Counted from the first letter of the stretch, positions 3,543-42,915 are shown. The stretch: 64,000 nt of DNA from Fodinisporobacter ferrooxydans (GCF_022818495.1 NZ_CP089291.1:310001-374000), one strand, 5' to 3'. The notes: generated from the letters alone by a model not told the origin. Numbers and translations: made by a program.

Positions 3543-3582
3543 AATGGTTCCTCCTTAAATGTTGTTCGTAAAAAAGAGAAAA

Positions 3583-3597
3583 AATTTGTACGCACAT
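3583..3597. promoter_or_regulatory. AraR operator in araA leader (proximal)
   Basis: ATTTGTACGCACATA matches the AraR box with one broken position in the right half; it lies 41 bp upstream of the araA start. Confidence 0.65.
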
Positions 3598-3677
3598 AAA
3601 AAATGTTACCAAAATAAACACAGAATTTAGCTAGAAATATTTACATTTAACCGTTTTCAAGATGTATAAACGTATAA

Positions 3678-3692
3678 TTTGTACGTACAACA
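3678..3692. promoter_or_regulatory. AraR operator in araA leader (distal)
   Basis: ATTTGTACGTACAAC is a near-perfect AraR palindrome, centred 95 bp from the proximal box. That spacing suits cooperative binding of two dimers. Confidence 0.75.
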
Positions 3693-3697
3693 CAATG

Positions 3698-4040
3698 TGT
3701 TTTTATTGTACCCTGAGCAAACGGTTATTTCAAGTTTTTTATTCTACCCCAACTTCCTCCAGGAATAACCAATTTTCAGTGGTTTTCCATTTATCTTTCA
3801 ATTTCCTTCATCAAAGCCAATAGGGGTACGTGAGTACATCACCCCCATATTAAGCACGCCCAATGTATTCCAATTAAGATAGTAGTTGCTGGCAAGGGAG
3901 CTGAGTTAAAGGAGATTATTTTAAAAAATTATTTAGAATAGTCATTGATTTTTAGGCTTCCTCACTGTCTAGCAGGATTGGAAGTTGAGCATACTGAGAT
4001 TATCAACTAGTAAAGGAGATAATTTCGAATGGAACTTATA
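3698..4040. other. Non-coding stretch upstream of araA with a gene remnant
   Basis: About 340 bp with no intact gene. A short plus-strand frame around 3866-3949 (ending ELKEIILKNYLE, stop) looks like the tail of a lost gene. AAGGAG and ATG near 4014-4033 start a frame that is interrupted at once by the IS3 element. Confidence 0.4.
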
Positions 4041-4091
4041 TAGTGGTCCCCAGAAACTAAACAACTCAGAAGGGACCGATTAAGCTACAAT

Positions 4092-4391
4092 ATGAGTATG
4101 AGAAAACATTATTCGGCATCATTCAAAGCAGAAGTCGTCTTGGAACTACTCAAAGAAGAAAAAACTATCGCTCAGATTTCATCTGAATACGGTGTGCACG
4201 TCACGATGCTCCACCGTTGGAAGAACACTGCCGTAGAGAATATGTCAAGCCTGTTTGAGGACGAAGGCAAGAAGAACGCCACCCTCAAGAAGGAGCATGA
4301 AAAAGAAACGTCTGAACTCTATGCGAAAATCGGTCGCTTAACCACGGAGGTTGAGTGGCTTAAAAAAAAATCTGGCATCAAACCGAACTAG
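4092..4391 (+). CDS. IS3-family transposase OrfA (helix-turn-helix protein)
   Basis: This 99-residue protein has the orfA N-terminal helix-turn-helix (HYSASFKAEVVLELLKEEKT, then HVTMLHRWK) and a Leu/Glu/Lys-rich coiled-coil tail (ELYAKIGRLTTEVEWLKKKS). It binds the element ends. It overlaps orfB by about 40 bases in another frame. The overlap contains AAAAAAAAA near 4361-4369, the usual type of slippery run for the -1 frameshift that makes the OrfAB transposase. Confidence 0.88.
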   Translation: MSMRKHYSASFKAEVVLELLKEEKTIAQISSEYGVHVTMLHRWKNTAVENMSSLFEDEGKKNATLKKEHEKETSELYAKIGRLTTEVEWLKKKSGIKPN

Positions 4392-5280
4392 AGATGATAG
4401 AGTTGCTATGGTCGATCACGATAGTGAGAAACTTTCTATTTCTAGGCAGGCAGAGTTACTCAGCCTGAATCGTTCGAGCCTTTACTACAACCCTGTGAGC
4501 GTCTCTGACGAGGAGATCCGTCTCCGGCGACGCATCGACGAGATATACACAGATCGGCCAGTCTCAGGAAGTCGTTACATTACGGCGATCCTGCGGCGAG
4601 AGGGCTGGGCCATCAACCGCAAGCGTGTCGTACGCTGCATGAGGGAAATGGGGATTGCCGGTGTGAGCCCTAGTCCGAATCTGAGTAAACGGAACCTGGC
4701 CCACAAGATTTATCCCTATCTGCTTAGAGGCGTTAAGGCCAGTCACCCCAATCATGTCTGGTCAATCGACATCACCTATATCCGCCTCAAGCGTGGATGG
4801 ATGTATCTTGTCGCCGTGATTGACTTGTATTCCCGCTATATTGTGAGTTGGGAGTTGGATCAGACACTGGAGATCGACTTCGTGCTGAAGGCCACTCAGA
4901 CGGCTTTGGGGCATGCGAAGCCAGAGATTTGGAACAGCGACCAAGGCAGTCATTTCACCAGTCCACAGTACACGGATATACTCAAGCAAGCTAGCGTCCG
5001 AATTAGCATGGACGGAAAGAATCGAGCTGTGGATAATATCTTTATTGAAAGATTTTGGCGAACGCTCAAGTACCAGGAAGTATACACAAAAGAATACGCC
5101 ACACCACGGGAGGCGCGGGAATCAATCAGAAAATTCGTATACAAGTACAATCACGAACGGCCACACCAATCGCTCAACTATCACACGCCTGCTGGGATTT
5201 ACCTGGATGGCATGAAACCTGAGGATCCGATTCCTACTTCTTCTCGGCAAAATACATATTCAGGAAAGGAGATTGCTTAG
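4351..5280 (+). CDS. IS3-family transposase OrfB (DDE catalytic domain)
   Basis: This 309-residue frame is the catalytic half of the IS3 transposase and is normally made as an OrfAB fusion by frameshifting. It shows the HTH_21 domain (IDEIYTDRPVSGSRYITAIL) and an rve integrase core. Catalytic residues are the Asp in HVWSIDITYI, the Asp in IWNSDQGSHF, and the Glu in NIFIERFWRTLKYQEVY. The C-terminal NHERPHQSLNYHTPAGIY is typical. The native start is probably inside orfA through frameshifting, so the coordinate start is only the open-frame ATG. Confidence 0.9.
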   Translation: MSGLKKNLASNRTRDDRVAMVDHDSEKLSISRQAELLSLNRSSLYYNPVSVSDEEIRLRRRIDEIYTDRPVSGSRYITAILRREGWAINRKRVVRCMREMGIAGVSPSPNLSKRNLAHKIYPYLLRGVKASHPNHVWSIDITYIRLKRGWMYLVAVIDLYSRYIVSWELDQTLEIDFVLKATQTALGHAKPEIWNSDQGSHFTSPQYTDILKQASVRISMDGKNRAVDNIFIERFWRTLKYQEVYTKEYATPREARESIRKFVYKYNHERPHQSLNYHTPAGIYLDGMKPEDPIPTSSRQNTYSGKEIA

Positions 5281-5411
5281 CAACAAAGGGATGAAAGAAA
5301 ACGAACAGGGGAAGCCGCTTCGCTCCTCCCCTCTGGCCTACGGCCATTCACCCCTCCCACTCCTCCTAAAAAGAGGATAGGAACAGGGAAAACTGGACTA
5401 TAGCTTAGAGA

Positions 5412-6251
5412 TTAAAAATTGTTGTCTTGACAAATGGGGCCATCATACGGTGTCCCTCCTTGGATAGAATCTTGCTTTTCCTGATGGATTCGTCGAATAA
5501 TTGGCTCACAATACTTGATCGATCTTACGCGGTCTCCCTGAAAGCGCGGTTGGTAGCGTGTGAAGGCGATATCAATCCCTTCAAGAATCACAACAGTTGC
5601 GATTCCGTCAGCAAGCATCTGCCGAATTCACTCATAATCACCGCTAGGAAGAAACGCAGCGCCGGTTTTGTTGCAAAAATACGTTTCAATCTGTGAGAGA
5701 GATGATGTTTTTTCATCATCATCTTTTACATCTTTTTTATCTTTATCACTATCATGATTAGATAGGACATTTTTGCCCGATGACTGTGCAGAATTGTGTG
5801 TTCTCTGCTCATCAGATAGGGCAGAATTTCCCTGTCTCTCGTTGTTTGACTGTTCATTTTTGCCTTCTCTGTTAGTGAGAGATCCGGCAGATTTGCCTGC
5901 TCTTTGTGAATGAGATAGGGCATGATTGCTGCTATTCATTTTGGCATAAACTCGATTCGTCACTCGAATGATCTGGCCGTATGGGGCACGCGTCATTCGA
6001 ATGTAGGATAGATCATGAAGCCGATTCAGATTGCGTTTTATCGTATCCTGACTGGATTGAAGCACCAGAGCGATTTCCTGATATTTAATGGGTCTGCCAC
6101 CATGTACGAGTCCCCAGACAATTCCGGTGTCATCCTGTGTCTCTGTTGTCGCATGACTTGCACACCATAAAAGTTCCCAGATCGCAGGCCCAATCTTCAA
6201 ACGGTGTAAGAAAAGATCTTCACCCACTGATATCAAGGAGTGGAAATGCAC
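5412..6251 (-). pseudogene. DnaD-like phage/plasmid replication-initiation protein, split by one in-frame TGA
   Basis: Read on the minus strand from 6251, a 207-codon frame ends at TGA (5628-5630). The same frame then continues for about 72 more codons to 5412. Before the stop the protein has a winged helix (RPIKYQEIALVLQSSQDTIKRNLNRL) and a low-complexity acidic linker rich in Ser, Asn and Lys. Beyond the stop comes IRQMLADGIATVVILEGIDIAF...YCEPIIRRIH, the C-terminal fold of DnaD-like replisome organisers. A CGA to TGA change would explain the break. Such proteins load helicase in phages and plasmids; the next genes are phage-type regulators. It may still be made by readthrough, but inactivation is likelier. 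Confidence 0.7.
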
Positions 6252-6285
6252 TCGATCCCTCCTGTCATCAGATTTTTACTAAGAG

Positions 6286-6501
6286 CTAATCCGAGCACCA
6301 GGTGTTTACCCGTTTTAGTGATTTTTGGTCATGTTCTTTTGCCAGATGCCAACCCAACTGCAGTTGAACTTCTTTGAGCTGTTCCTGATAATATCGGACA
6401 GCTCCCAGCGCTTTTAGATCATGAGCCGGATACAACTCCTGGATCTGTTGTTTGTAAAGAGCTTCTTTTTTACGCAGTTTGTCAATTTGTTCACTTTTCA
6501 T
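6286..6501 (-). CDS. Small hypothetical protein of phage-like block
   Basis: A 71-residue charged protein starts at ATG 6501, behind GGAGG seven bases upstream. It begins MKSEQIDKLRKKEALYKQQI and is mostly predicted helix with heptad character (possible coiled coil). Its start overlaps the end of the XRE gene 6491-6748, so they are translationally coupled. I recognise no family. The location suggests a minor replication or regulatory accessory. Confidence 0.6.
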   Translation of the reverse strand: MKSEQIDKLRKKEALYKQQIQELYPAHDLKALGAVRYYQEQLKEVQLQLGWHLAKEHDQKSLKRVNTWCSD

Positions 6502-6748
6502 TTTGAATCGCCTCCTTTTCGTTAGGAGATAGCTTGTCCTGCTGAAGTAAATCTGGGAACAGATGTTCAAGTGATGATTCAAGTGCAGCTGAAATTTGTA
6601 TGGCGCGTTTGAGTGAAAGACCGCGTTTGCCGCTTTCGATATTGTGATAGCCAGCTGAAGAAAGCCTTAATTTTGTGGCAATTTGTTCCTGGGTAAGTCC
6701 TAAACTCTCGCGTCTTTCACGAACGTAACGCAATTCTTGATGGATCAA
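6491..6748 (-). CDS. Small XRE-family DNA-binding protein
   Basis: This 85-residue protein is almost all one Cro/C1-type helix-turn-helix: LRYVRERRESLGLTQEQIATKLRLSSAGYHNIESGKRG with ALESSLEHLF after it. It diverges from the XRE repressor at 6895, with the shared promoter region 6749-6894 between them. This is the classic Cro/CI-like divergent arrangement of temperate elements, so a Cro-like role is likely but inferred from layout only. Confidence 0.82.
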   Translation of the reverse strand: MIHQELRYVRERRESLGLTQEQIATKLRLSSAGYHNIESGKRGLSLKRAIQISAALESSLEHLFPDLLQQDKLSPNEKEAIQNEK

Positions 6749-6812
6749 TCGATCACCCTTCTCTCATGGAAAGTAAGTTTATTATAGGGCGATGAATTCA
6801 ATCAGGTCAATA

Positions 6813-6823
6813 CGTTAATAACG
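6813..6823. promoter_or_regulatory. Palindromic operator candidate in the divergent XRE promoter region
   Basis: CGTTAATAACG is a perfect 5-bp palindrome around one base, lying between the divergent XRE genes. A possible -10 element TATACT is at 6859-6864 for the rightward gene. A binding role for either XRE protein is inferred. Confidence 0.4.
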
Positions 6824-6894
6824 AAATGACTAATATTTTACGTTTTGTTTATTTGTGCTATACTAGACTTAACAAATTGGCGGATGGTGAGACT

Positions 6895-7326
6895 ATGTCA
6901 CTCGGAGAACGGCTAAAGATCGTTCGAATCAAGAAAAACTGGAATCAAACAGAGGCAGCAGACAGGATCAACATCAAAAACGAGACGTTATCTCAGTATG
7001 AACGAGACAGACGAAAGCCTGATCCGCAAATGCTGGCTCATATCGCGAAAACATACGATGTATCGATCGATTATCTGATGGAAATGACGGAGGATCCAAC
7101 CCCGGTTCGTCAGTTACAAAGGCAGCAGGATCTCCTCGAGGATAGTTCGGAGCTTACATTAGAGGAGTCTTTGATGCTAGAGGAAATGAGAAAGAACACC
7201 AAATTTGCGGTTGCGTTTAATGAGTTCTTGTCTGCACCACAGGAGAAGAAAAAGGAATTTTTGCGCATGTGGAAAGTGTACAAGAACTTAGTCGATGAAC
7301 CAGAGGATGAAAGTGACGAGGAATAA
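6895..7326 (+). CDS. XRE-family repressor
   Basis: A 143-residue protein. The ATG at 6895 (MSLGERLKIVRIKKNWNQTE) is preferred over upstream in-frame codons because a GGATGGTGA ribosome-binding site precedes it and the helix-turn-helix domain begins there. Residues 5-62 form a Cro/C1 HTH (NQTEAADRINIKNETLSQYERDRRKPD, then YDVSIDYLMEM). The C-terminal half is acidic, helical and unlike known effector domains, ending DEPEDESDEE. It most resembles SinR/ImmR-like element repressors. With the adjacent ImmA-like gene it suggests an immunity repressor cleared by proteolysis. Confidence 0.85.
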   Translation: MSLGERLKIVRIKKNWNQTEAADRINIKNETLSQYERDRRKPDPQMLAHIAKTYDVSIDYLMEMTEDPTPVRQLQRQQDLLEDSSELTLEESLMLEEMRKNTKFAVAFNEFLSAPQEKKKEFLRMWKVYKNLVDEPEDESDEE

Positions 7327-12924: not shown

Positions 12925-14608
12925 GACTTATGCAGTTCGAGACAATAACTGGTAAATATCTGGTTTGGGCGTAGCCCAAAGAAGCATTAAGTAATGCTCT
13001 GGCCAAAATAATTCAATGAGTCTTGCAAATTGCTGCACTTGTGTGTCACAATCAATAGAGATTCGCTGAATACCTCTGTGGTTATTCACGCGAACCTGAC
13101 AACGAGTGTGGAAGAGGCCGCGAACCATTTCGCCGTGGGTGTAGCCTTCATCATCGCTCGTTTTTTCTTTGTTCAATTCAAAAAGTGCAACAGCTAACAA
13201 GGTCTCGGCAGTGAATAATAATTCGAAATGAGCATGATGGTGCGCTTGCGATTCAGAATGGCACTTCTCGAAAGCCAGTTCTTGCTTGGCTGTACGAAAG
13301 AAAACCTCGATCCTCCAGCGTTTTACATATGTTTGTAACGCTTCTTTTGGGGCATCGTGGCGGTTACTTATAAGTAAATATGCACCTTTATAAGTGGCAG
13401 GTGACTCCTCACCTTCGGTGTCTACATCAGCCGAATTGAGTTGTTCATCCTCCTTTAACCGCATGGCGACTACAGCGGCGATTGGAACATATCTATGTTT
13501 CGTCACTTGCTTACCTTTGCGATTCACAGCAGTATAAGGACGCTTCATGTAAATCCCCGGAACGGAAATAGAGACCAACCCGGATGTCGCCTTTCGAGTT
13601 AAGTCTTTAAACACCTCACGGATGAGCATGATTGGAGTCAGCGGCACGAAGCGTTCCCTACGGGTACCAGGTTCGATAACTTTGCGGAATAAAGTTGTGT
13701 TACGTTTTGCTTTAGTCACCCAATCAAAATTGTTTTCTTCAAGAAATGTAAAAAATTTTTTACACAAGTACCACCGATCCATTGCTACCCACAAATGGCA
13801 AGTGACGGATTCACGTAGCATCAATAACATTTGCCTGGCAAGATCCAGTTTGGTAATACCTTCACCTTTTACTTCTGGCTTATGCCAGATACGGTAAAAC
13901 AATGGATACTCCAATCCGCTTTTCAGAACCGCCTGAAGAGCCACGAGATTTGTCGCCCATACATGGACTTTCATTGAGTGGTCAAAGAGCCAACTGAGAA
14001 ACGGAAGTTGCTTGGCATAGGGATGCGCACTGTGAGTATCATCGAGATTGACCACATCCCCATCGGTGAGTCGGGTCAAAGGATCATGCTGCAACCGCTC
14101 GACACGTTTCTTTGCGAATGTCACCCATGCAAACCCATTCGTGAAAAAGCGGCTTAACGTGTATTGAGCTATTTTCCAAGGCTGAAACATCGCCTTGAGT
14201 AATGCGTCCTTATCGACCAACTCAGCTATCTGAAAAACAGAAGAACAATTCGAAACAAGACCAACGACATAGAGAAAGCAAATGAACCATGACGGAGCTC
14301 CACTGCGTTTCATGATACCCGATTGAGTAAGCAAAAGAGATAAATCAAAGCGATCCCAAAGGCTTTTGAGAATGGGTGCTCCTGCACATTCTCCATGATT
14401 GAGTTCTTTAAATCTTGGTTTTTGTAATGCTGACATGAAAAGCCCACCTATAATCTAAAGATATACCCGGTAATTAAAGGTATCCTTCGCGATTATTGTG
14501 GCATTTTCTAAAAGTCAAGTAGTTTTTATGATATTTTTTGAAATATTTCAGACTATTCGGTGTCCTATGATGATAACCAATTAATTACATGAACTGCATA
14601 GGTCATGA
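12921..14608 (-). mobile_element. IS4-like insertion sequence
   Basis: About 1,688 bp between inverted ends TCATGACTTATGCAGTTC (left) and, on the other strand, TCATGACCTATGCAGTTC (right), 17 of 18 identical. It encodes one intact transposase. Flanking sequences do not match each other: the left flank is a sirtuin core and the right flank is unrelated. No target duplication is seen, which points to an adjacent deletion or rearrangement. Confidence 0.83.
12928..14436 (-). CDS. IS4-like transposase
   Basis: A 502-residue DDE transposase. Conserved segments include the first Asp region DGDVVNLDDTHSAHPYAK (about 125-140), VAMDRWYLCKKFFTFLEEN (second Asp), and the YREK-like C-terminal YVKRWRIEVFFRTAKQELAFEKC with the catalytic Glu (about 375). 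This places it in the IS4 superfamily. The frame is complete and begins 155-170 bp inside the right end, as expected for a single-ORF IS. It is probably functional. Confidence 0.85.
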   Translation of the reverse strand: MSALQKPRFKELNHGECAGAPILKSLWDRFDLSLLLTQSGIMKRSGAPSWFICFLYVVGLVSNCSSVFQIAELVDKDALLKAMFQPWKIAQYTLSRFFTNGFAWVTFAKKRVERLQHDPLTRLTDGDVVNLDDTHSAHPYAKQLPFLSWLFDHSMKVHVWATNLVALQAVLKSGLEYPLFYRIWHKPEVKGEGITKLDLARQMLLMLRESVTCHLWVAMDRWYLCKKFFTFLEENNFDWVTKAKRNTTLFRKVIEPGTRRERFVPLTPIMLIREVFKDLTRKATSGLVSISVPGIYMKRPYTAVNRKGKQVTKHRYVPIAAVVAMRLKEDEQLNSADVDTEGEESPATYKGAYLLISNRHDAPKEALQTYVKRWRIEVFFRTAKQELAFEKCHSESQAHHHAHFELLFTAETLLAVALFELNKEKTSDDEGYTHGEMVRGLFHTRCQVRVNNHRGIQRISIDCDTQVQQFARLIELFWPEHYLMLLWATPKPDIYQLLSRTA

Positions 14609-14766: not shown

Positions 14767-15219
14767 CTACAAATCCAAAACATATTTGAGGAGTGTGCAG
14801 TATGAATAAACCTTCGGTATTCCTAGTTTTCTCTTCTTCCCCTCTTCTTTTGGTATTTCTACCCTTCGAACGGGATTAGGACGGTATTTACCGTCCAGAA
14901 TGGACTGCCTGAGTTGGCTTCCGTTTTCTTTGAGATATTGCAGAAGCTCATCTACTTTCATCCCATCGACTCCGTGCGCCCCTTTGTTGGATTTAACTCT
15001 CTTGTACGCATAGTTCATGTTGTTTTTATCCACGATTTTCTCAAGCAGTTTCTTTTTCGACATGTCTGCGCCGGTGATGTTGTTTTCAGTTATCCTTTCA
15101 GAACTGTGCACTCCCGCATATCCTTCGTGTTCCGCACTATTCTTTTGCAGTGAGCCTTCCTTACGACTGTCGTCTGCTGGAAGTTGGCTGCACTTCGCTC
15201 CTGTTTTGGTAACATTCAT
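14767..15219 (-). pseudogene. Group II intron reverse transcriptase/maturase, N-terminal fragment
   Basis: The 150-codon frame contains the typical LtrA-like start of the RT domain: KKKLLEKIVDKNNMNYAYKRVKSNKGAHGVDG, with VRRVEIPKEEGKKRKLGIP (RT0/RT1) after it. It then loses homology (VYSYCTLL) and stops. Full-length proteins are over 400 residues, so RT2-7, domain X and the endonuclease part are gone. The real start is probably at MSKKKLLEK. It cannot drive splicing or retrohoming. Confidence 0.85.
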
Positions 15220-15624
15220 TGACTACCACCTCCTTAGGTTCAACCCTTCCCCGATGATGTCGACTTCCTCGGGTACTATGGTATCTGCTGACTTCTCATG
15301 GTAAATCTTGTTTCAACCGTGACTCAAAATTTTATCTCCTCACGTCCATGAGATCTCCCACGGTAAGACGATTCATTTTCATTCCATGTACCCACATCAT
15401 TTACACTGGTATGTCCGTGTAGTTAATAGGACTTGGTTTTGTTATGCAAACTCATCCAATACCATATGCCTGATGATGTTCGTGTTCCTTAGGTCGGAAT
15501 TTTGCCTCCAGCTTCCTTCAGATTCCACCTCGCGGTGGACACCCTTGCTCTTGGCTAATGGTTGGCAACTACAAGCCCCCATAGTGGACTTTCACCACCT
15601 AGTTAATCGCCATGCGTGGCGCAC
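14767..15624 (-). mobile_element. 5' fragment of a group II intron
   Basis: The RNA begins GTGCGCCACGCATGGCG at 15624 on the minus strand, a bacterial group II intron 5' end. It continues with the domain-I-like GGTGGTGAAAGTCCAC, then the ORF fragment. The 3' half with domains V and VI is absent. The 5' end abuts the T tract of a terminator hairpin (15625-15660), the insertion context known for class C introns. Confidence 0.75.
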
Positions 15625-15694: not shown

Positions 15695-15701
15695 ATATTG
15701 T
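15695..15701. repeat. Target-site duplication, left copy
   Basis: ATATTGT immediately before the transposon end TGTGAATGAGCAC; the same heptamer follows the right end at 19271-19277. Confidence 0.88.
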
Positions 15702-15705
15702 TGTG

Positions 15706-15740
15706 AATGAGCACTTTGTTTCCGCAGGAAACAAGTGCTC
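15706..15740. repeat. Subterminal hairpin at the transposon left end
   Basis: GAGCACTTTGTTTCC and GGAAACAAGTGCTC form a long stem around GCA. Its outer part overlaps the terminal repeat, so it may be a transposase-binding pair or block read-in transcription. Confidence 0.6.
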
Positions 15741-15825
15741 ATTTGCACATTGGAACAGATTACCGCTATTTTAATGCCGCCTCAATTTGCTAAACTTTTT
15801 GCAAATTATAAGGGCGGTGTTTCGA

Positions 15826-16392
15826 GTGATTATTACCCATCATTTTCCAGTTGATCTTCCCTGTTATTTTCAGCTCGGCAGGGCCAATAATTTCCCTGTG
15901 ATTGAATCTTGCCCGATTTGTAAGTCCCAACAGAAGTTAAAACGCCATGGTTTTTATAACCGCTACGCGATCGAGACCGATGCAGAATATCGGATTCCCA
16001 TTTGCCGTTACAAATGTCCGAATCCCAAATGTAACAAAACATTCGCTATTCTTCCGGATTTTCTGCTTCCCTACTTTCAGAACACGCTCTCTTCCATCTT
16101 GCAGACCTTACAACTATTCTGGGCTTATTGTGTACTGCTATTTAGCCGCCAGTTAGTTTGTTTTTACCGGAAACGGTTGATGGCCAAAAGCAAAATCATC
16201 GAGATGTTCTTTCGTCTTGAGGGGAACAAACAGATCTTCCCAGAAGATCCCATAGAAAAAGCCATAATGCTTCTGAATATGATTGAAACTCTCCCCAGAG
16301 TCACCTTCATTCGAAAGTGGCACAATCATTACATTAGCAGCTTTATGGCACATTCATTTTATCACGGATCACCCGTGGCCAAAACAGAATAA
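15826..16392 (+). CDS. DUF6431-like zinc-ribbon protein of the transposon
   Basis: A 188-residue protein starting at GTG 15826, behind AAGGGCGG; an upstream TTG (15787) would fall within the end repeats. Residues 34-80 form a probable zinc ribbon: CPICKSQQKLKRHGFYNRYA, then CRYKCPNPKCNKTF, i.e. CxxC paired with a second Cys cluster. A hydrophobic helical region follows (FLLPYFQNTLSSILQTLQLFWAYC). I recall this as the DUF6431 pattern. It resembles zinc-ribbon ends of transposases, so it may bind transposon ends or target DNA. Its position first in the transposon suggests a targeting or regulatory part; this is inference. Confidence 0.72.
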   Translation: MIITHHFPVDLPCYFQLGRANNFPVIESCPICKSQQKLKRHGFYNRYAIETDAEYRIPICRYKCPNPKCNKTFAILPDFLLPYFQNTLSSILQTLQLFWAYCVLLFSRQLVCFYRKRLMAKSKIIEMFFRLEGNKQIFPEDPIEKAIMLLNMIETLPRVTFIRKWHNHYISSFMAHSFYHGSPVAKTE

Positions 16393-16537
16393 TGTTTCCA
16401 CATACCTTTTTCCTCGTCAGGGACCGTGTACGGGTTTTATAATGCATCGTAATGGTTAGCCGGCTAGCCTTCGAAAAGGAAGAACGAGAAAGCGCGCCAG
16501 TTCTTTCCAATTTAGACAATGGGAGGCTACTTAACCA

Positions 16538-17803
16538 ATGGATGAACAAAACCGGGAACGCGTGGCCCTTTTTCGCTATGGGATCATCGCTCCCTTGCTC
16601 AATGAACAGGTGGATCGCGCCACATATTTGGCTGAGGTGTCTGCCAAAACCCACGAAGTCCCTTACTATGGTTCCAAAGAATTTACACCCAAGACAATCT
16701 TAGCTTGGCTAAGGCAATATCGCCGTAATGGTTTTGACGCGTTAAAGCCCCAGGCACGTTCGGATCGAGGACAATCCCGATCGTTATCCGGTGAATTACA
16801 GCTGCACTTGGTATCCCTGCGTAAAGAAAATCAAGGAATGCCAGTGACGGTGTTTTATGACCAATTGGTGCAACAAGGAGAGATTTTACCGCAGGATGTA
16901 TCTTATACCTCTATCTATCGCTTACTGAAAAAGGAGGGATTGCTGGGGAAGGGGATAGTGCGTTCGCCCGAACGAAAACGGTTTTCTCATGATACGGTCA
17001 ATATGCTCTGGCAAACCGACCTGTCAGATGGGCCATATCTTCGTACAGGCGACAAAAAAATCAAGACGTATTTAATTGCGGTGATCGATGATTGCTCTCG
17101 CCTATGCACATTTGCGCAATTTGTCCCATCCGAGAAATTTGACGGGCTACGCACAGTCTTGAAAGAAGCTTTGCTTCGCAGAGGCATTCCCAAGATGCTG
17201 TATACCGACAACGGCAAGATCTTTCGTTCCGATACGCTGCATTTGGCTTGTGCAGAATTAGGCATACACCTCCTGCACACGCAGCCCTATGATGCCGCTA
17301 GCAAAGGGAAAATAGAACGCCTGTTCGGAACGATTAAGACGCGTTTCTATTCGCTGTTAAAAGCAAAACCGGCTTCTTCATTGGAAGAACTGAATGAACG
17401 GTTTTGGAAGTGGTTGGAGGAAGACTACCATCGCAAGCCACATTCTTCTCTCAATGGAAAAATGCCGCTCGAAGTGTACTTGTCCCAGATTGATCAAGTA
17501 CGGATGGTCGACGACCCTGCCAAATTAGATCCTATCTTTCTTAAACGGGAGAATCGAACTGTCAAACATGACGGAACGTTTTCGCTCAATAACCAGCTGT
17601 ATGAAGTTCCCGAGCGATTTATAGGTCAAAAGATCGAGATTCGTTACGATGAACAAGGCGTGCATATCTATGAGGACGGGAAACCAGTCGCTCGCGCTTC
17701 TGAAGTGAATTTTCATGATAATGCTCATGTAAAACGAAAACGACCCGCCATCTCCTTCGCTGATATGCAAGGGATGGACAGGAAAGGAGAAGATAGGGAA
17801 TGA
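16538..17803 (+). CDS. DD35E transposase (TnsB/TniA/MuA-like rve family)
   Basis: This 421-residue protein starts at ATG behind GGGAGG. Residues 1-75 are helix-turn-helix DNA-binding sequence (GSKEFTPKTILAWLRQYRRNGFDAL). The integrase core follows, with catalytic Asp161 (LWQTDLSDGP), Asp224 (LYTDNGKIF) and Glu260 (KGKIERLFGTIK). That gives exact DD35E spacing. The C-terminal part (VKHDGTFSLNNQLYEVPERFIGQKIEIRYDE) is the beta-barrel domain of Mu/TnsB-type enzymes. It cuts and joins the transposon ends. Its stop overlaps the ATPase start (ATGA), indicating translational coupling, as in TnsB-TnsC, TniA-TniB and IstA-IstB pairs. Confidence 0.88.
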   Translation: MDEQNRERVALFRYGIIAPLLNEQVDRATYLAEVSAKTHEVPYYGSKEFTPKTILAWLRQYRRNGFDALKPQARSDRGQSRSLSGELQLHLVSLRKENQGMPVTVFYDQLVQQGEILPQDVSYTSIYRLLKKEGLLGKGIVRSPERKRFSHDTVNMLWQTDLSDGPYLRTGDKKIKTYLIAVIDDCSRLCTFAQFVPSEKFDGLRTVLKEALLRRGIPKMLYTDNGKIFRSDTLHLACAELGIHLLHTQPYDAASKGKIERLFGTIKTRFYSLLKAKPASSLEELNERFWKWLEEDYHRKPHSSLNGKMPLEVYLSQIDQVRMVDDPAKLDPIFLKRENRTVKHDGTFSLNNQLYEVPERFIGQKIEIRYDEQGVHIYEDGKPVARASEVNFHDNAHVKRKRPAISFADMQGMDRKGEDRE

Positions 17804-18609
17804 TCATGGCATTCTATTCCCTTTCCAAAATCCCTTTTGCCAAGGAAACCAAAGGTATGTCGCCCTATACTTCCCGTTCCTTTCAAGAAGCAATGGGATG
17901 TTTAACCTACATGAAGCAGGTTCGCGGCATGGCACTTGTTGTCGGCGACCCGGGAGCCGGTAAAACCTACGCCTTGGGTGCATTTGCCGAAGGCTTGGGC
18001 CAATCGCTCTACAAGGTCATCTATTTCCCGTTGTCTACAGGAACAGTAACTGACTTTTACCGTGGATTGGCCTTCGGCCTAGGAGAACAGCCACAAAGTC
18101 GGAAAGTGGATCTGTTTCGCCAAATCCAACAGGCGATTAGCCGTTTGTTCTACGAACAAAAGATTACGCCGGTTTTCATCCTTGACGAGATGCAAATGGC
18201 CAAAGATGTCTTTTTACAAGATTTGAGCCTGCTCTTTAATTTTCACATGGATACCCAGAATCCTTTTGTCCTTCTTATATGCGGCTGGCCTTACTTACGG
18301 GACCGTCTGTCGTTAAACCCACATAGATCCTTATCCCAGCGGCTTTTGGTTCGACATCAGGTCGAGCCGCTGGATAAGGAAGAGGTCAAGGGATATATGG
18401 AGCATCACCTTGCCTATGCCGGGGCGAAATATCCGATTTTCACGGAAGACGCAATAGAAGCTGTTAGTGCCTGTTCCAATGGATATCCACGCCTGATTAA
18501 TTTATTGGCTATGCACGCCCTATTATATGGCAGCCAAAACAAAAAAGAACAGATCGATGCCGAAGTCATCCGGATCATCGCCCCGGAGTGCGGTCTGGCA
18601 TTGAGATAG
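17800..18609 (+). CDS. AAA ATPase of the transposon (TnsC/TniB/ExeA-like)
   Basis: A 269-residue protein with Walker A GDPGAGKT (49-56), Walker B VFILDEMQ (about 125-132), a sensor region LLICGWPYLRDRL and the C-terminal lid GYPRLINLLAMHALLYG. It is of the ExeA/TniB type. In Mu-, Tn7- and IS21-like systems such ATPases bind target DNA, recruit and stimulate the transposase and enforce target immunity. It overlaps the transposase stop by four bases. The second Met (ATG at 17806) is an alternative start. It is intact. Confidence 0.87.
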   Translation: MIMAFYSLSKIPFAKETKGMSPYTSRSFQEAMGCLTYMKQVRGMALVVGDPGAGKTYALGAFAEGLGQSLYKVIYFPLSTGTVTDFYRGLAFGLGEQPQSRKVDLFRQIQQAISRLFYEQKITPVFILDEMQMAKDVFLQDLSLLFNFHMDTQNPFVLLICGWPYLRDRLSLNPHRSLSQRLLVRHQVEPLDKEEVKGYMEHHLAYAGAKYPIFTEDAIEAVSACSNGYPRLINLLAMHALLYGSQNKKEQIDAEVIRIIAPECGLALR

Positions 18610-18679
18610 CTTGGATGGCTTAGAACGAGTCAAAGGGGACAACCCTGATCCCCAAATATTCTCAGGAAAGGAAAGAATC

Positions 18680-18916
18680 ATGATGACCCGAACCCAAAAA
18701 CCAGGAATCCTCGTCTATTGTCCTGCCAAGGAACGCTGGCAAATCCAAAAGATAGACCATTCTTACGACCTTCACTGCGGCGATTGTTTCGAGATTAAGG
18801 TAGGCTATGAGTATATCCCTTGTAGAATAGAACTTGGCTGTGAATGGCTGTTATACCTTCGGGAAACTCGATTTTATTTACATCCAAAACAGAAATACGA
18901 AGTGAAAGTCGATTAA
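18680..18916 (+). CDS. DUF5348-like small protein of the transposon
   Basis: A 78-residue protein starting at ATG-ATG behind AGGAAAGGAAAG, 70 bp past the ATPase. It is beta-rich, with ILVYCPAKERWQIQKIDHSYDLHCGDCFEIKVGYEYIPCRIE and several Cys but no paired zinc motif. I associate this pattern with DUF5348, a small barrel-like domain common beside such transposases. A role in assembly or regulation of transposition is possible; its function is unknown. Confidence 0.65.
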   Translation: MMTRTQKPGILVYCPAKERWQIQKIDHSYDLHCGDCFEIKVGYEYIPCRIELGCEWLLYLRETRFYLHPKQKYEVKVD

Positions 18917-18944
18917 CAAAGAGTGACAAGTGATTACTTCTTAG

Positions 18945-18991
18945 ACCCAGTAGAAAGGCAATAGCTAAATGCTATTGCCTTTCTACTGGGT
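18945..18991. terminator. Perfect 21-bp hairpin after the transposon genes
   Basis: ACCCAGTAGAAAGGCAATAGC pairs perfectly with its inverse copy around TAAAT. There is no long T tract but the stem is very strong; it probably ends the transposon operon. Confidence 0.6.
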
Positions 18992-19252
18992 GCAACAAGC
19001 GATAGCGCGTTAGGAAAAAAGCAAACTTGATCACGTATTAGACGAGTATATAGGGAATGAACGATTTGAACAAGAGCGGAATTGGGATAAAGTGTAGTTG
19101 AAGTAGGATGGATTGGATAATAGTGGAATGAAATACTCGCCAGAAGACCGCGAAAGCGTGCAAATTTTTTAATCATTGGCTAATTTATTCTGAAAAAGGG
19201 GCCTAAAATCTTTCGATATGGGACCTAAATAATTTGCAAATCCTAAGCCGAT
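18992..19252. other. Transposon right-end region
   Basis: About 260 bp without a gene. It contains the inner right-end repeats at 19157-19168 and 19230-19242, and ends in the terminal repeat 19258-19270. Confidence 0.6.
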
Positions 19253-22240
19253 TTATTGTGCAAATTCACAATATTGTTCGTTGCCATCCGGCAATCTGGT
19301 GTACGAATGATTGATGGAAGCTTCTTCAATCTCGCCGAATCCCCAATAGGTTGTCGGTACATCCGGCCATGTAGGAGTTTTTACATCCTCTAAAGGACCG
19401 CGTCCAAGCATTTTATTGATCATTGTCACAGCTTCGGCACGAGACAAATTCTGCTCTGGATGGAAACTTCCATCCGGGTATCCTTGGATAATCCCTGCCT
19501 GTTCGACTGCTCCAATCGCAGCTTGCGCCCAATTCGTTGCTGTATCCGTAAATGCCGCTGCCTGACTCGGAGTCAATTTTTTTACCCGCTGGATGAGACT
19601 TGCCATCTCCGCACGGGTGATCGGTGCATCTGGATGGAACGATCCATCTGGATAACCACTCATCATCCCGTGTGCCGTCATAGCAGCGATTGATTTGGCT
19701 GCCCAATGTGCAGCAGGTACATCTGAATACGAATTAGTAACAGTTGCTGCTGAATTGGTATATTGAAGAATTCTCGCAAGCATTGCTGCCATTTCCGCTC
19801 TCGTAATGGAACGATCCGGTCCAAATGTGCCATCCGGGTATCCAAACATATAGGCTTGGTGCGTTTGAATTGCTAGCGGGATCATACTGAAATCGTAGTG
19901 AATCACAGTTTCCCCTACATGCAGAATTCCGTCTTTCAGATAACTGGTATCACCAAAGGCCAGGCTTCTCGTGTCTTTGCGGCTGTCATATGTTTCATAG
20001 CCATCTTTTTGAGCAAGGATATAATAGTCACCCTTTGGGTATACAACCCAACCATATTGACCACCATTTTTAGTTACCTGTGGATTATGATTCTGGTTTG
20101 GCGCAAAATTCGGCAACTCTGGCAAATCCACAACAGTGCCGGGTGTACGCCCGTTATCCCTGTTTAGCTGTGTATCTGCCCAATACAGTTGTACATTTAC
20201 GCCATCCAATGGTTGATTCGTAGCAGCATCCTTCACAATACCATACGGGTCGATCGACGCCGTATGCACATCCACCTGCCGATTGCCGTTGACCGTTAAC
20301 TGCGCTGTGGTACCTGCCAACTCTTGTCCGGAAGGAGAGACCACATGGACATTCATCGTATATTGTCCAGGTTGCAAATTAGTATTGATGGAGAAGTTCC
20401 CTTGTGAGTCGATCGAAATTTCCGGCACATTTACAGGGTTGCCATTGACATCCGTCAAAGTCGCTGCCAGTTTATTGTCTCCTATCAACGCTGTAAAAGG
20501 ATTTTTCTGTGTACCGCCGCCCCCGAGATTGCCGCTGATTGGGCTGCCGGATGATCCGCCACCTCCGCCTGAACTGCTGCTATGGCTTCCACTATTTGCT
20601 GCTGTAACCGTTACAGTTGCCTGCGCCGACTGGTCTTGGTAAGCAGCCGTTACCACGGTTTGCCCCGCCGCTTTTGCCGTAACGAGTCCATTGGCATCAA
20701 CGGAAACTATACTTGGATCACTTACGCTAAATGTAACACCTGAATTTACGGCAAATTTACTGGAATCCGAATATACGGCTGTGACTACCGTTTGATGCGT
20801 ATTTTCTACAGAAAGCGTATAGGAATCTGTATCTAACGTGATACCTGTAAGTGTTGGCCGCGCATTCACCGTTTGTACGATAGGAGCCGAAGTACTATTG
20901 AAATAGTTGAAGTCTCCACTATACTCTGCCGTGATCGAATGATTGCCAAGCGAGAGACCGGATACGGTAATACTCGCTTGCCCCGACGACGCATCCAGAT
21001 TTGCTGTCCCAAGTGCAGTCGCTCCATTCGTAAATGTTACCGTTCCGGTTGGCTGTCCGAGCGCAGAATCTCCAGGAACCGGAACGGACGCCGTAAATGC
21101 AACAGATTGATCCGGATATGACGGATTCCGTGAACTTTGCAGCGTGACAGTCGGGCTAAAAGCCGTCAAGAACAGTGATGGAGTATTAAACTCATTGTTG
21201 ATAAGTATGCCTGTTGCTACAAACTCCCCATTGCCGTATGTGACGCCTTCTAAAAGTATATTGCTTACATCGGGTCCACCCATGACCGGCTGACCTGTCC
21301 AATTTACTAAATCAGATGAAGTAAATATCTCATCGTCTCGCCTGGAAACTAAAACAAATAAACCGTTGGCATATGTAAAGTCATTGTTTCCGCTTAAATC
21401 CGTCATGCCGCCAAAAGCCGAGACCACTTGAGGAGAGGACCATGTTTGCCCATTATCATTTGAAACGATTAACAAATATACCTTCTTCCATGTACTTGAA
21501 TCAATATAGTGTTCAAGTACAACAAATTTGTTATTTCCAAATGTTATTTGGTCACCGTTTGTGTTCAAATTTGTATTACCTGAATACGTCTCAGTCCAAT
21601 TTGATCCATCAGCGGACGTTAAGATTGCACCGCTATAATATCCATCAAGCGCTACAAATTCCCCGTTTCCATATGCAACATTTTTCAATTGCAAATTTGC
21701 CAGATCCGGTGCGTTTTGCGAACGCCAGTCCGACCCATCTGTTGATGTCAAGATAATCGAGCCGCTAACATCTCCGGTCCCAACAGCTACAAACATATTC
21801 GTTTTGTCACTATAAGCTATACCAGTTAAGGTACTATTTGATAGATTATTAGGCGAAATATAGGTAGAATCACTAACCGTTTGTGATTTCCATGTTTTCC
21901 CATCTGTCGAACTGTAGATCATTCCATGATCACCGACAGCGACAAATTGCCCTCCCCCAAATGTAACCGCTTCAAAGCTTCCATTTAATTCCCAATTATA
22001 ATTGTAAACATCTGCACCTACCCATCCACTGCTATTCTTGTATAAAATCCCGCTTCCAACCGCAACAAATGTTCCGTTTCCATACGCATCACCATATAGA
22101 GAAGTTAGCTGAATACTTGTACTGCTCTGCCAATTCCCTGTTGCTGCCATACTATAAGGGATACCGTTGAAGAGTGAAATTACCGCTAACAATAAAGAAA
22201 AGAAAAATTTGCTCAACCTTCTATGTTTATCACACTTCAA
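19253..22240 (-). CDS. Secreted S-layer-homology protein with BNR-like repeats and Ig-like domains
   Basis: The start is taken as TTG 22240, eight bases after AAAGGAG. The further ATG at 22279 has no such site. A signal peptide follows (KFFFSLLLAVISLFNGIPYSMAA). Residues about 40-380 hold repeated YGNGTFVAVG / STDGKTW units, a BNR/sialidase-type propeller. Then come a Big_3-like Ig domain (SRNPSYPDQSVAFTASVPVP), a Big_2-like domain (VNSGVTFSVSDPSIVSV), a Gly/Ser linker, a carboxypeptidase-regulatory-like domain, and three SLH domains (GYPDGTF..., GYPDGSFHPDAPITRAEM, GYPDGSFHPEQNLSRAEA). It should be anchored to the cell wall. The last five residues come from transposon DNA; the ancestral end read QYTGSAGK. 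Confidence 0.9.
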   Translation of the reverse strand: MKCDKHRRLSKFFFSLLLAVISLFNGIPYSMAATGNWQSSTSIQLTSLYGDAYGNGTFVAVGSGILYKNSSGWVGADVYNYNWELNGSFEAVTFGGGQFVAVGDHGMIYSSTDGKTWKSQTVSDSTYISPNNLSNSTLTGIAYSDKTNMFVAVGTGDVSGSIILTSTDGSDWRSQNAPDLANLQLKNVAYGNGEFVALDGYYSGAILTSADGSNWTETYSGNTNLNTNGDQITFGNNKFVVLEHYIDSSTWKKVYLLIVSNDNGQTWSSPQVVSAFGGMTDLSGNNDFTYANGLFVLVSRRDDEIFTSSDLVNWTGQPVMGGPDVSNILLEGVTYGNGEFVATGILINNEFNTPSLFLTAFSPTVTLQSSRNPSYPDQSVAFTASVPVPGDSALGQPTGTVTFTNGATALGTANLDASSGQASITVSGLSLGNHSITAEYSGDFNYFNSTSAPIVQTVNARPTLTGITLDTDSYTLSVENTHQTVVTAVYSDSSKFAVNSGVTFSVSDPSIVSVDANGLVTAKAAGQTVVTAAYQDQSAQATVTVTAANSGSHSSSSGGGGGSSGSPISGNLGGGGTQKNPFTALIGDNKLAATLTDVNGNPVNVPEISIDSQGNFSINTNLQPGQYTMNVHVVSPSGQELAGTTAQLTVNGNRQVDVHTASIDPYGIVKDAATNQPLDGVNVQLYWADTQLNRDNGRTPGTVVDLPELPNFAPNQNHNPQVTKNGGQYGWVVYPKGDYYILAQKDGYETYDSRKDTRSLAFGDTSYLKDGILHVGETVIHYDFSMIPLAIQTHQAYMFGYPDGTFGPDRSITRAEMAAMLARILQYTNSAATVTNSYSDVPAAHWAAKSIAAMTAHGMMSGYPDGSFHPDAPITRAEMASLIQRVKKLTPSQAAAFTDTATNWAQAAIGAVEQAGIIQGYPDGSFHPEQNLSRAEAVTMINKMLGRGPLEDVKTPTWPDVPTTYWGFGEIEEASINHSYTRLPDGNEQYCEFAQ
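19258..19270 (-). repeat. Transposon right terminal repeat, overlapping the SLH gene end
   Basis: TGTGAATTTGCAC on the minus strand matches the left end in 11 of 13 positions and encodes part of the altered CEFAQ tail. Confidence 0.88.
19271..19277. repeat. Target-site duplication, right copy
   Basis: ATATTGT, identical to 15695-15701; it lies within the SLH reading frame (codons for Gln-Tyr). Confidence 0.88.
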
Positions 22241-39947: not shown

Positions 39948-40024
39948 TGGTCGGAATGACAGGATTTGAACCTGCGACCTCTACCTCCCCAAGGTAGCGC
40001 GCTACCAGGCTGCGCCACATCCCG
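39948..40024 (-). tRNA. tRNA-Pro (GGG)
   Basis: Acceptor CGGGATG with CATTCCG, anticodon loop TTGGGGA between CTACC and GGTAG, T-loop GGTTCAAATCC, CCA encoded. Neighbours a broken integrase, so it may be a phage attachment site. Confidence 0.95.
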
Positions 40025-40271
40025 ATTATCTCATTCAAATATTTATGAAATCCAAGAATAAAGGTTGGATTCAGTAATAAAAATAATATTGCATATGATG
40101 CAAATTGTCAAGCTGCCTTTTATCCAATAGCGCTTTGTTAACCGAGTTATTGATTTCTTATCCAATTCTTTACACTCTTCATGCAGGAATGGAAATTGAG
40201 GAAGAGAAAACAATACGTGTAGAAACTTATTGAAATCCCATGAAATATTTTAATTTAGGGGAGTTGATCGT

Positions 40272-40451
40272 ATGTTATGTCCACACTGCGGGCCAAAAGG
40301 CCATTTGGAACAAGTCGCTTTTTCTTCGGAATATGAACGGTTTCATTGTTCAGTCTGCGGTAAAACGTATGTATCATATGCACTTGGTAACGGTGAATTT
40401 ACAGAACCTATACCTCTCTCTTCAAAGGGTAATAATCAAAACATCAAGTGA
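40272..40451 (+). CDS. Small zinc-ribbon protein (59 residues)
   Basis: Below common length cut-offs. ATG 40272 follows AGGGGAG at eight bases. The product starts MLCPHCGPKGHLEQVAF and has RFHCSVCGKTYVSYALGNGE. Two CxxC pairs (Cys3/6 and Cys26/29) form a compact zinc ribbon, followed by a polar tail. Function is unknown. The strong ribosome site and paired Cys outweigh the longer alternative frame in this region, which has no such features. A hairpin follows at 40517-40562. Confidence 0.72.
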   Translation: MLCPHCGPKGHLEQVAFSSEYERFHCSVCGKTYVSYALGNGEFTEPIPLSSKGNNQNIK

Positions 40452-40516
40452 AAACGGATTTCTTACATTTACCCGATATCTATATTCGAAATAAAACAAG
40501 TGCTCATCAAACTTAC

Positions 40517-40562
40517 AGCTATTCTATAACCGTCTGTAACTGGCGACGGCTATAGAATAGCT
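40517..40562 (+). terminator. Hairpin after the zinc-ribbon gene
   Basis: AGCTATTCTATA pairs perfectly with TATAGAATAGCT, with an inner CCGTC/GACGG stem. No strong T tract follows, only TTTTGTTGTT. Confidence 0.55.
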
Positions 40563-40662
40563 CGGCTGAATTTTGTTGTTCCTTTTCCAAACAGAAAACG
40601 AACTTTGCGAAAATTATTAATATAATGGTCAGATTTTCAAATGACTTTTTGGGATTGCTTTA

Positions 40663-40974
40663 CTATCCATAATAGCTTGCAGCATCTATTCTTTCTATGC
40701 CGCTTAACATATAATCCAGTTCAATTTCCAAGTTTAACCGTAAAGGTCCGGGGATTTGTTCTAAAATTTCTGATACTTCAGGTATTTGTAAAGCATCAAT
40801 CAGGTCAGGCTTATTATCCATTGTTTTAGTCCAACTACGAATCTGATCAAGAAAATTATAATATGCATCTCCAAAACGGTAAGCATCAATTTCAACACTT
40901 TCTAGATCGCTCATTTGCATGTATTCCCAGTTATCTAATAAAATGATAAGAGATTCTTTTACTTCTTTGTTCAT
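40663..40974 (-). CDS. Hypothetical acidic protein (103 residues)
   Basis: Starts at ATG 40974, behind AAGGGAGC. The product is acidic and mostly helical (LIILLDNWEYMQMSDLESVEIDAYRFGDAYYNFLDQIRSW). No domain is recognised. The size and acidity recall small immunity-type or Imm-like proteins, but no toxin partner is beside it, so I make no assignment. Confidence 0.6.
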   Translation of the reverse strand: MNKEVKESLIILLDNWEYMQMSDLESVEIDAYRFGDAYYNFLDQIRSWTKTMDNKPDLIDALQIPEVSEILEQIPGPLRLNLEIELDYMLSGIERIDAASYYG

Positions 40975-41348
40975 CGAAACCAGCTCCCTTGTATCAGAAT
41001 TTTAAATTGCAGATCATTTTAAATGATTGTGATTTTTTTCACGTGATGTACAGCAATAAATTTAACTTGTAGGTAGTATACCTTTTCTAAAAAAAGTAAA
41101 AAATAGCAAGAATGACTTATTTTTATAATCCTTTTGAACTATCTTATTTGATTTCATTTAAACGGACTGAAGTATGCTCAAAGCCAAGAATACTCACATT
41201 ATGAATCACAAATCTGTTTCAAAAACAAAAAAACCACTTTACTGTTTTTCACAAACAATAAAGTGGTGCACCGCGATCTATTTCATTTTCATTTGGACAC
41301 ATGATTTTTTCGATCCATAAAATCCATCAAAACAGTATTCTATAAGGT
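40975..41348. other. Intergenic region with a tRNA terminator
   Basis: About 370 bp, AT-rich, no gene seen. It contains the terminator at 41230-41268. Confidence 0.5.
41230..41268 (-). terminator. Terminator of tRNA-Pro (CGG)
   Basis: On the minus strand ACCACTTTATTG pairs with CAGTAAAGTGGT, followed by a run of seven T. Confidence 0.75.
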
Positions 41349-41349
41349 T

Positions 41350-41426
41350 TGGTCGGAATGACAGGATTCGAACCTGCGGCCTCACGGTCCCGAACCGTGC
41401 GCTCTACCAAGCTGAGCTACATTCCG
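41350..41426 (-). tRNA. tRNA-Pro (CGG)
   Basis: Acceptor CGGAATG with CATTCCG, anticodon loop TTCGGGA between CACGG and CCGTG, CCA encoded. It shares its 3' end with tRNA-Pro(GGG). Confidence 0.95.
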
Positions 41427-41587
41427 TCAGGGATCTCTCCAAGAGAATTGATTTAAGAGTATCATTCCGAATGATAAAAGTAAATTCTTAGGAGGATACC
41501 GTTTGGCAAGAAGTCAAAATGTACTGCCTCTTTTAAAAAGAAGCAGAACAAAATTCAATAAAACTAGAAAACTAGGAATATCCAATG

Positions 41588-42460
41588 TTACGAATGAATC
41601 GACTCCATTAGTTTGGCAATTGTATGTTCAATAGATTGAATTCTTTGTGTAACTGATGTTAGCGCAACTGATTGTTCATACGTTACTTCTTTATTTTGCT
41701 CGACCCGAGATGTTATTTGCAGGAATAAATTTTGAACCTCATTTACAATTTTTCCAATTGCTTCGACAGACTCTGAACTCGATGTTGCAAGCTTCCGCAC
41801 TTCATTCGCAACAACTGAAAATCCTCTTCCTGCCTCTCCAACTCTGGCTGCTTCAATAGCAGCATTTAAACCGATTAAATTACTTTGTGAAGCAATATGT
41901 TTGATAATATTCAGAACCTCAAAAATGCTTTTCATTTTGTCTTTTGATTCCGTTGTAATTCGATATGTATCTTGGCTGGCCGATGCCACTTGTTGTGCAG
42001 ATGTAGAGATTTCCTCCACGGTTGCGGATATTTCCTGCAGATACGTATTCAATTCCTCAATTGTGTGAGAAAGAACTTTTACCTGCTCGTCATTTTTTAA
42101 AAGCATTTGTGTAATCCGGGAAGCAACGCCAACTACCGGTCGAACAATTCCAGGATCCCCAGTGATTCCCATGTTTGCAATTCGTACGCCATCGTATACG
42201 ACTGGTATATTGATACCCGCTTTTGTAACTCCACCTGAACGAATTTCTTCATCTTTCGTAACGATACCTTCATCAATGACACCATCGACAACTTTTTTGG
42301 CGACCGGATGAAAATTTCCAATTCGTTTCCGGTCGGACGCAGCAAATATAATTCCATCCTTATCTGTCACCAGTACTGGATATCCGGATTCTTCCGTTAA
42401 GATGTCGCATATATTTTGGGCGATTTCTTTCGTTAGAAGAACTTGAGCATCTGCTTCCAT
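41588..42460 (-). CDS. Soluble chemoreceptor-like protein with sugar-diacid recognition domain
   Basis: A 290-residue protein from ATG 42460, behind GAGGGAGC. Residues 1-125 match the CdaR-type sugar diacid recognition domain ([38 protein letters not shown], then [21 protein letters not shown]). A linker coil follows. Residues 150-290 are the methyl-accepting signalling hairpin with the conserved tip region ([41 protein letters not shown]). There are no membrane helices, so it is cytosolic. It probably senses an organic acid or sugar acid and talks to CheA/CheW, or works outside chemotaxis. No che genes are nearby. Confidence 0.85.
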
Positions 42461-42630
42461 AAACGGCTCCCTCACAGAAATTTAAATAGATTCTCTAGTT
42501 TATAATACCACAAAATTCTTAACAATTTCTTTAAAATATTTAACGGAAAAAAGCGATTTTCACACGCTATGTTTAGCATAAAGCATCCGGAAAAGCGATT
42601 GTGATCACCCTGTGATCAGTGATGAAAAAA

Positions 42631-42657
42631 GCCTTTCAGCAAAATGCTGAAAGGCCT
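42631..42657 (-). terminator. Terminator of the rRNA-tRNA operon
   Basis: GGCCTTTCAGC and GCTGAAAGGC form a strong stem on the minus strand, followed by TTTTTT. It lies 18 bp after tRNA-Arg(CCT). Confidence 0.85.
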
Positions 42658-42674
42658 TGATATAACTGTATTTC

Positions 42675-42753: not shown

Positions 42754-42756
42754 ATA

Positions 42757-42848: not shown

Positions 42849-42915
42849 ACGATCAAAAAAATAAGTTTAAGTCAAATATACATTTCAATCAATTCCAAAA
42901 ACCGTAAAATAAAAA

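Follow-up and report, generated by a model that had tools for sequence, protein, structure and literature searches.

Bacteriophage Mu (MuA-MuB), IS21 (IstA-IstB), Tn7-like elements (TnsB-TnsC-TniQ), and Tn402/Tn5053 (TniA-TniB-TniQ) pair a transposase with an AAA regulator; MuB, TnsC, and IstB polymerize on target DNA, mark it, and activate the transposase. TnsC has a role in licensing the transposase at the target (PMC10761935). Members of the IS481 family have TGT...ACA ends and duplications that are mostly 6 bp, within a range of 2 to 15 bp (PMC10045372), and the named ISNCY elements ISArsp9 and ISArsp14 span 13 to 17 kb and carry cargo and a resolvase (PMC6305408). Here, we describe a transposon from Fodinisporobacter ferrooxydans, located in a 64,000-nucleotide stretch of its genome (NZ_CP089291.1:310001-374000; hereafter the window, with positions counted from its first letter). 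We read this element, with a probability of about 0.7, as an autonomous, cargo-free transposon whose movement would be driven by three core proteins, namely, a zinc-ribbon protein matching the Pfam family DUF6431, a DD35E transposase, and an AAA ATPase (Table 1).

Evidence for mobility comes from the genome itself, which was searched for copies as one contig of 4.86 Mb. A transposase search returned seven full-length matches at 100% and an eighth match that was split in two. Seven copies are base identical across all 3,569 bp and sit at unrelated genomic sites, and the eighth is this element again, 7,046 bp long and with its transposase gene interrupted by an insert of 3,471 bp. All eight share the tips TGTGAATGAGCAC (left) and TGTGAATTTGCAC (right, given as the reverse complement), which are of the TGT...ACA type, and each is flanked by its own exact duplication (CGAATAC, ATATTGT, GGCTAC, GCATTAG, ATAGTAT, CCCCATAT, ATATTAA, and ACGTAT). 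Because eight copies have the same two ends and different exact duplications, chance is excluded. An initial annotation of the window had proposed a complete transposon with exact ends and a 7-bp target duplication. The copies confirm its extent and its ends, and ATATTGT is indeed the duplication of the window copy; however, 7 bp is only the mode, since duplications are 6 bp in two copies, 7 bp in five, and 8 bp in one. When the flanks of the window copy are joined and one ATATTGT is dropped, the C terminus of an S-layer-type gene is restored. Insertions lie mostly within genes (S-layer, UvrD-like helicase, symporter, IstB, and others), and because these are unrelated, there is no fixed attachment (att) site. 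Judged from its sequence, the transposon is complete, mobile, recently active, and recently multiplied in this genome.

The ends have the layout that would be expected of transposase-binding arrays. A weight matrix for an 18-bp motif (consensus TTTGCAAATTATTTCGGC) was trained only on the ends of relatives. At a threshold of at least 10 bits, it finds six sites in the terminal 280 bp and none in the 3.3-kb interior; at a threshold of at least 8 bits, there are eight in the terminal 280 bp versus one in the remaining 3.3 kb. The background in the rest of the window is 0.09 sites per 280 bp. The additional TTTGCA repeats that had been noted at both ends are, therefore, real.

The transposase has an invariant catalytic triad (D161, D224, and E260, encoded at 17018, 17207, and 17315) with DD35E spacing, and a domain scan places HTH_32 and HTH_28 at its N terminus. 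Compared with solved structures, its profile matches TnsB of the type V-K CRISPR-associated transposon (CAST) ShCAST first (E = 1e-33), followed by IstA (E = 8e-21). Its stop codon overlaps the ATPase start by 4 bp (ATGA, 17800 to 17803). The ATPase retains intact Walker A (G49 to K55) and Walker B (D129-E130) motifs; its profile matches MuB first (E = 1.5e-13) and then TnsC of Tn6677 (VchTnsC), ShCAST (ShTnsC), and Tn7, and the ATPases of 7 of 24 members match Pfam TniB. These profile matches agree with the earlier description of a TnsB/TnsC-, MuA/MuB-, or IstA/IstB-like pair, and the domain matches, the invariant triad, and the ATGA overlap agree with the four intact genes described there (DUF6431, DDE transposase, AAA_22 ATPase, and DUF5348).

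Three of these genes behave as a module. Among 18 loci chosen by transposase alone, the ATPase is present in all, and DUF6431 stands in front of the transposase in 17; the exception is a contig edge with only 260 bp there. In the other direction, among the 30 best DUF6431 loci, 21 have the transposase in their short flanks. Gene trees from 28 elements share 23 of 25 splits between transposase and ATPase and 17 of 25 between DUF6431 and transposase, with Mantel r at 0.90 to 0.91; overall, distance correlations are 0.85 to 0.91 and were reached by none of 2,000 permutations. Ratios of nonsynonymous to synonymous substitution rates (dN/dS), over all computable pairs, are 0.11 to 0.24 for DUF6431, 0.06 to 0.15 for the transposase, and 0.03 to 0.19 for the ATPase. 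By these ratios, all three core genes are under purifying selection, and DUF6431 evolves faster than its partners. Because of its constant presence, agreeing trees, and purifying selection, DUF6431 is core machinery, and a role as cargo is ruled out, in line with the initial annotation, which suggested that the zinc-ribbon protein may act in target choice or end recognition. An apparent member lacking DUF6431 (L090) is actually split by an IS21 element before the transposase gene. From the gene comparisons, the DUF6431-transposase-ATPase set has been passed down as a unit in three or more phyla. The idea of all four genes as one set thus stands for the three core genes but not for DUF5348, which is optional.

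The same gene order, DUF6431 followed by the DD35E transposase and the AAA ATPase, is found in Bacillota, Actinomycetota, Pseudomonadota, and a Chloroflexi bin, including Paenibacillus, Geobacillus, Metabacillus, Sporosarcina, Thermoanaerobacter, Planococcus, Thermobacillus, Acidithiobacillus, Cupriavidus, Pandoraea, Rhodococcus, and Streptomyces. Among Bacillota genomes sampled without regard to the element, 47 of 249 have a strong transposase match and 88 of 398 have DUF6431. Family elements are 3.0 to 3.6 kb throughout and therefore have no room for cargo. Mobility is also seen elsewhere. Thermoanaerobacter wiegelii contains many near-identical copies with TGTC ends, of which seven have exact 6- or 7-bp duplications, and in two other genomes (G011 and G013), copies with TGT ends have 6-bp duplications in eight of nine cases checked. 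Single-copy relatives have TGT ends and duplications of 5 to 9 bp. Relatives, then, do carry such ends and duplications, contrary to the prospect, raised earlier, of the same genes occurring elsewhere without them.

The DUF6431 protein of the element scores 39.4 bits against PF20020 (E = 5e-10; gathering score, 26.6), and all 28 relatives match the family at E values of up to 1. Conserved cysteines are C29, C32, C64, and C69. In an AlphaFold2 (AF2) model with a mean predicted local distance difference test (pLDDT) score of 89.7, a beta zinc ribbon at residues 25 to 79 precedes five helices; the ribbon structurally matches NrdR and RNA polymerase subunits (Z, 3 to 3.8). Searches of PDB and viral models gave no full-length match to the fold, only zinc ribbons and a loose, weak alignment to ISCth4. 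Several relatives match HTH_28, HTH_23, and HTH_Tnp_ISL3, and some match Zn_ribbon_ISL3. Given the zinc-ribbon fold and these helix-turn-helix (HTH) matches, DUF6431 is most likely a DNA-binding protein made up of a zinc ribbon and an HTH. In the open literature, only one indexed paper names DUF6431, listing it in a table of genes next to a DDE transposase (PMC12323340).

In the mechanism that we propose, the DD35E transposase would bind the end motifs, pair the ends, cleave at TGT/ACA, and join them to staggered target positions, and the AAA ATPase would polymerize on target DNA, mark it, and activate the transposase, as MuB, TnsC, and IstB do. Homology makes these two steps, taken jointly, very probable. 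DUF6431 would serve as a small adaptor that binds DNA and recruits the ATPase to the target or nucleates it there, a TniQ-like job with relaxed specificity, and DUF5348 might act as an optional modulator. Loading of the ATPase on target DNA is the role that we favor for DUF6431, albeit tentatively; a role at the ends and some other function are the alternatives. Because the element's open reading frames include neither a TnsA-like nuclease nor a resolvase, movement is probably replicative or copy-out rather than Tn7-style cut-and-paste.

Several results weigh against this account. An hhalign comparison of DUF6431 with a two-sequence profile of Tn402 TniQ and Tn7 TnsD reached only E = 0.12 and thus showed no homology to TniQ; TniQ is also absent among the listed fold matches of DUF6431 (PDB and viral models), although such a listing is no proof. 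With no detectable relation to TniQ or TnsD, the proposed adaptor role is based on association and on the type of domain. The likeness of the ATPase to MuB and TnsC is clear in profiles yet remote. Also, the ends of single-copy relatives are weaker evidence because the search that located them demanded a duplication.

A credible, if still doubtful, alternative is that DUF6431 acts at the ends or as a regulator, either aiding the transposase in binding or pairing the ends or repressing the operon from the left-end motifs. The motif at 15798 lies directly upstream of the DUF6431 start, the combination of zinc ribbon and HTH is similar to the DNA-binding module at the N terminus of ISL3-type transposases (as reflected in the Zn_ribbon_ISL3 and HTH_Tnp_ISL3 matches of some members and the weak ISCth4 match), and insertion sites appear untargeted. 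However, the transposase has its own N-terminal HTH_32/HTH_28 region, which is sufficient for end binding in IS481- and IS3-type elements.

Two transposase trees recover the family as one clade (support of 97/96 with 37 members and 100/99 with 29 members), apart from IS21, IS3, IS1202/ISNCY, IS481, and TnsB/TniA/MuA; in the ATPase tree, the family forms its own group with weak support (68/86). A reduced Tn7-like or Tn402-like element that has lost TnsA and TniQ is an unlikely explanation. Among solved structures, the transposase is closest to TnsB and the ATPase to TnsC/MuB; the end-motif arrays are as in Tn7, and a grouping with TnsB/TniA is not rejected by the approximately unbiased (AU) test (P = 0.31). 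Both Tn7-like and Tn402/Tn5053 elements further share with this one a DDE transposase with a Mu C-terminal domain, an AAA regulator, multiple end motifs, and TGT ends. Nevertheless, the family has its own well-supported clade, and the element is without TnsA, TniQ, resolvase, cargo, and att-site targeting. A Pfam scan found no TniQ domain in any of its four proteins, DUF6431, which takes the place of TniQ, is unrelated to it in sequence and not alignable to it, and the duplications are 6 to 8 bp rather than the 5 bp of those elements. The earlier placement in a Tn7/Mu superfamily holds as a description of mechanism but is unproven as one of membership.

Least probable is an ordinary IS481-family insertion sequence with two acquired passenger genes: the transposase, whose DDE core is most like the NCBI IS481 model, scores 212.6 bits against a cutoff of 224 (with some clade members above it, such as G107 at 243.5 bits), TGT...ACA ends and duplications of about 6 bp are usual for IS481 (PMC10045372), and an IS481 grouping, tested with only three IS481 references in the tree, is not rejected (AU P = 0.12), but IS481 typically has a single transposase gene, sampled single-gene IS481 transposases fall outside the clade, and the ATPase and zinc-ribbon genes are fixed partners that practically all members have, in three or more phyla, and that show agreeing trees and purifying selection. 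In NCBI annotation, some relatives are labeled "IS481 family transposase" and "AAA family ATPase."

Other comparisons are more distant. Like the element, IS21 is a compact transposase-ATPase two-component operon with coupled genes, and its duplications are similar in length. Unlike the element, IS21 has no third protein, and IstA falls in a separate clade (99/99); the window transposase reaches 60.4 bits against a cutoff of 160 for the NCBIfam IS21 model, and the ATPase is only weakly similar to IstB (13.7 bits against a cutoff of 200; E = 0.036). Among solved structures, MuB of bacteriophage Mu comes closest to the ATPase, yet the element is a transposon rather than a phage, MuA is far larger and distant in the tree, and Mu is without a zinc-ribbon partner. 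The nearest named ATPase-bearing elements found, ISArsp9 and ISArsp14, have ends of the TGTGAATCG type and likewise encode an AAA ATPase and a Mu-C transposase, but they have a resolvase instead of DUF6431, a much greater length with cargo, and a transposase and ATPase outside the clade. No named element or description of this gene set was found in the open literature, a search that did not extend to ISfinder and TnCentral, and to that extent the initial annotation, which knew of no named element of this kind, is upheld. By sequence comparison, the element belongs to a three-protein family of AAA-regulated DDE transposons that is widespread and apparently without a name. Conceivably, though at less than even odds, this is a distinct superfamily in at least three phyla and about one-fifth of sampled Bacillota, in which DUF6431, as a zinc-ribbon/HTH protein, would do the work of TniQ while being unrelated to it and would thus provide a third means of linking an AAA regulator with its target.

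Table 1. Positions of the transposon, its genes, and its ends in the window
Feature	Position	Strand	Basis
Left target duplication, ATATTGT	15695..15701	.	Read at the copy's junction
Whole transposon, 3,569 bp	15702..19270	+	Eight genomic copies: 7 full and base identical, 1 interrupted
Left end: TGTGAATGAGCAC tip and 18-bp motifs at 15708, 15742, 15776 (opposite strand), and 15798	15702..15815	+	Motif from relatives only
Left-end palindrome, 11-nt perfect arms	15706-15716 and 15733-15743	within left end	z -7.2
DUF6431 zinc-ribbon plus helical (HTH-like) protein, 188 aa, GTG start	15826..16392	+	Pfam PF20020; AF2 model
DD35E transposase, 421 aa, rve and Mu-transpos_C	16538..17803	+	Pfam, NCBIfam; best PDB relative ShCAST TnsB
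AAA_22 ATPase, 269 aa	17800..18609	+	Pfam E 9e-21; best PDB relative MuB
DUF5348, 78-aa small beta-barrel protein	18680..18916	+	Pfam E 2e-14; AF2 pLDDT 83.5
21-bp perfect hairpin, between last gene and right end	18945..18991	+	z -10.5
Right end: TGTGAATTTGCAC tip, with 18-bp motifs that start at 19247, 19223, and 19179	19179..19270	-	Motif scan
Right target duplication, ATATTGT	19271..19277	.	Read at the copy's junction

The fourth gene, DUF5348, is a lineage-specific accessory and an optional part of the element. It is missing from many family members, and 14 of 19 DUF5348 loci outside this genome adjoin the ATPase; in Bacillota, most DUF5348 genes are found next to it. Its model is a small SH3/Tudor-like barrel that matches a Ruminococcus gnavus protein lacking annotation (3nrl; Z, 9.3). 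The 21-bp hairpin is probably a terminator or read-through block; several relatives have hairpins at the right end, but different ones, and so a conserved right-end hairpin was rejected. The left-end palindrome is mostly retained in Paenibacillus ginsengihumi.

The individual insertions have further features. The three bases before the left end (window 15699 to 15701) read T-A-N in seven of the eight insertions and T-G-T in the eighth; T stands at -3 in all eight, and the right junction is without a matching bias (n = 8). This T-A-N bias, which is absent from distant relatives, hints at an orientation-specific target preference. One copy (L015) sits in an IS21-type IstB gene, placing one AAA-regulated element within another. 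The insert in the eighth copy (L016, ~3554 to 7024; genome ~2,040,053 to 2,043,523) is RIT-like, with three tyrosine recombinases in a row; it lies close to the codon for the catalytic glutamate and has a 6-bp repeat, CAAAGG. The genome also contains the remnant of a second, diverged member (L124, ~4030 to 4920; genome ~4,272,000 to 4,273,000), which consists of a right end with DUF5348 and ATPase pieces, has at least four end motifs, and adjoins tRNA genes and an integrase fragment.

Beyond this genome, a divergent member on Undibacterium plasmid pUKW01 (L130) has two partly duplicated tandem copies with repeated DUF6431, transposase, and ATPase pieces. In one Bacillota genome (G144, C17 and C18), family transposase matches lie within open frames of 818 to 851 aa, possibly fusions. 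Short DUF6431 proteins of ~127 to 138 aa occur at three loci with no transposase nearby (L140, L149, and L152), as remnants or host-adopted copies. Carriage of the family by phages was considered and rejected: among 69 relatives on viral contigs, only one (L215) matched at the family level, and it carries the gene set; the others are weak matches that were not inspected individually.

Directly upstream of the element are group II intron pieces (Rfam RF01998 and RF02001, minus strand; window 14767 to 15543) with a cut LtrA-like open reading frame; they adjoin a 502-aa insertion sequence transposase at 12928 to 14436. All of these pieces lie outside the element, and an Rfam scan found no other structured RNA in or beside it. 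Farther along the window, 16 tRNA genes are clustered on the minus strand (39948 to 44426).

RNA-guided insertion tools derive from AAA-regulated transposons, in which the loading of the ATPase by a target selector is a central question. This family is a very small natural set, with 3.0- to 3.6-kb elements, three core genes, no cargo or att site, and many intact identical copies, and it could serve as a minimal system for studying landing-site choice. It also provides a functional setting for two Pfam families of unknown function, DUF6431 and DUF5348. If DUF6431 is the selector or loader, then the idea that TniQ is the sole zinc-ribbon solution of this kind would become directly testable.

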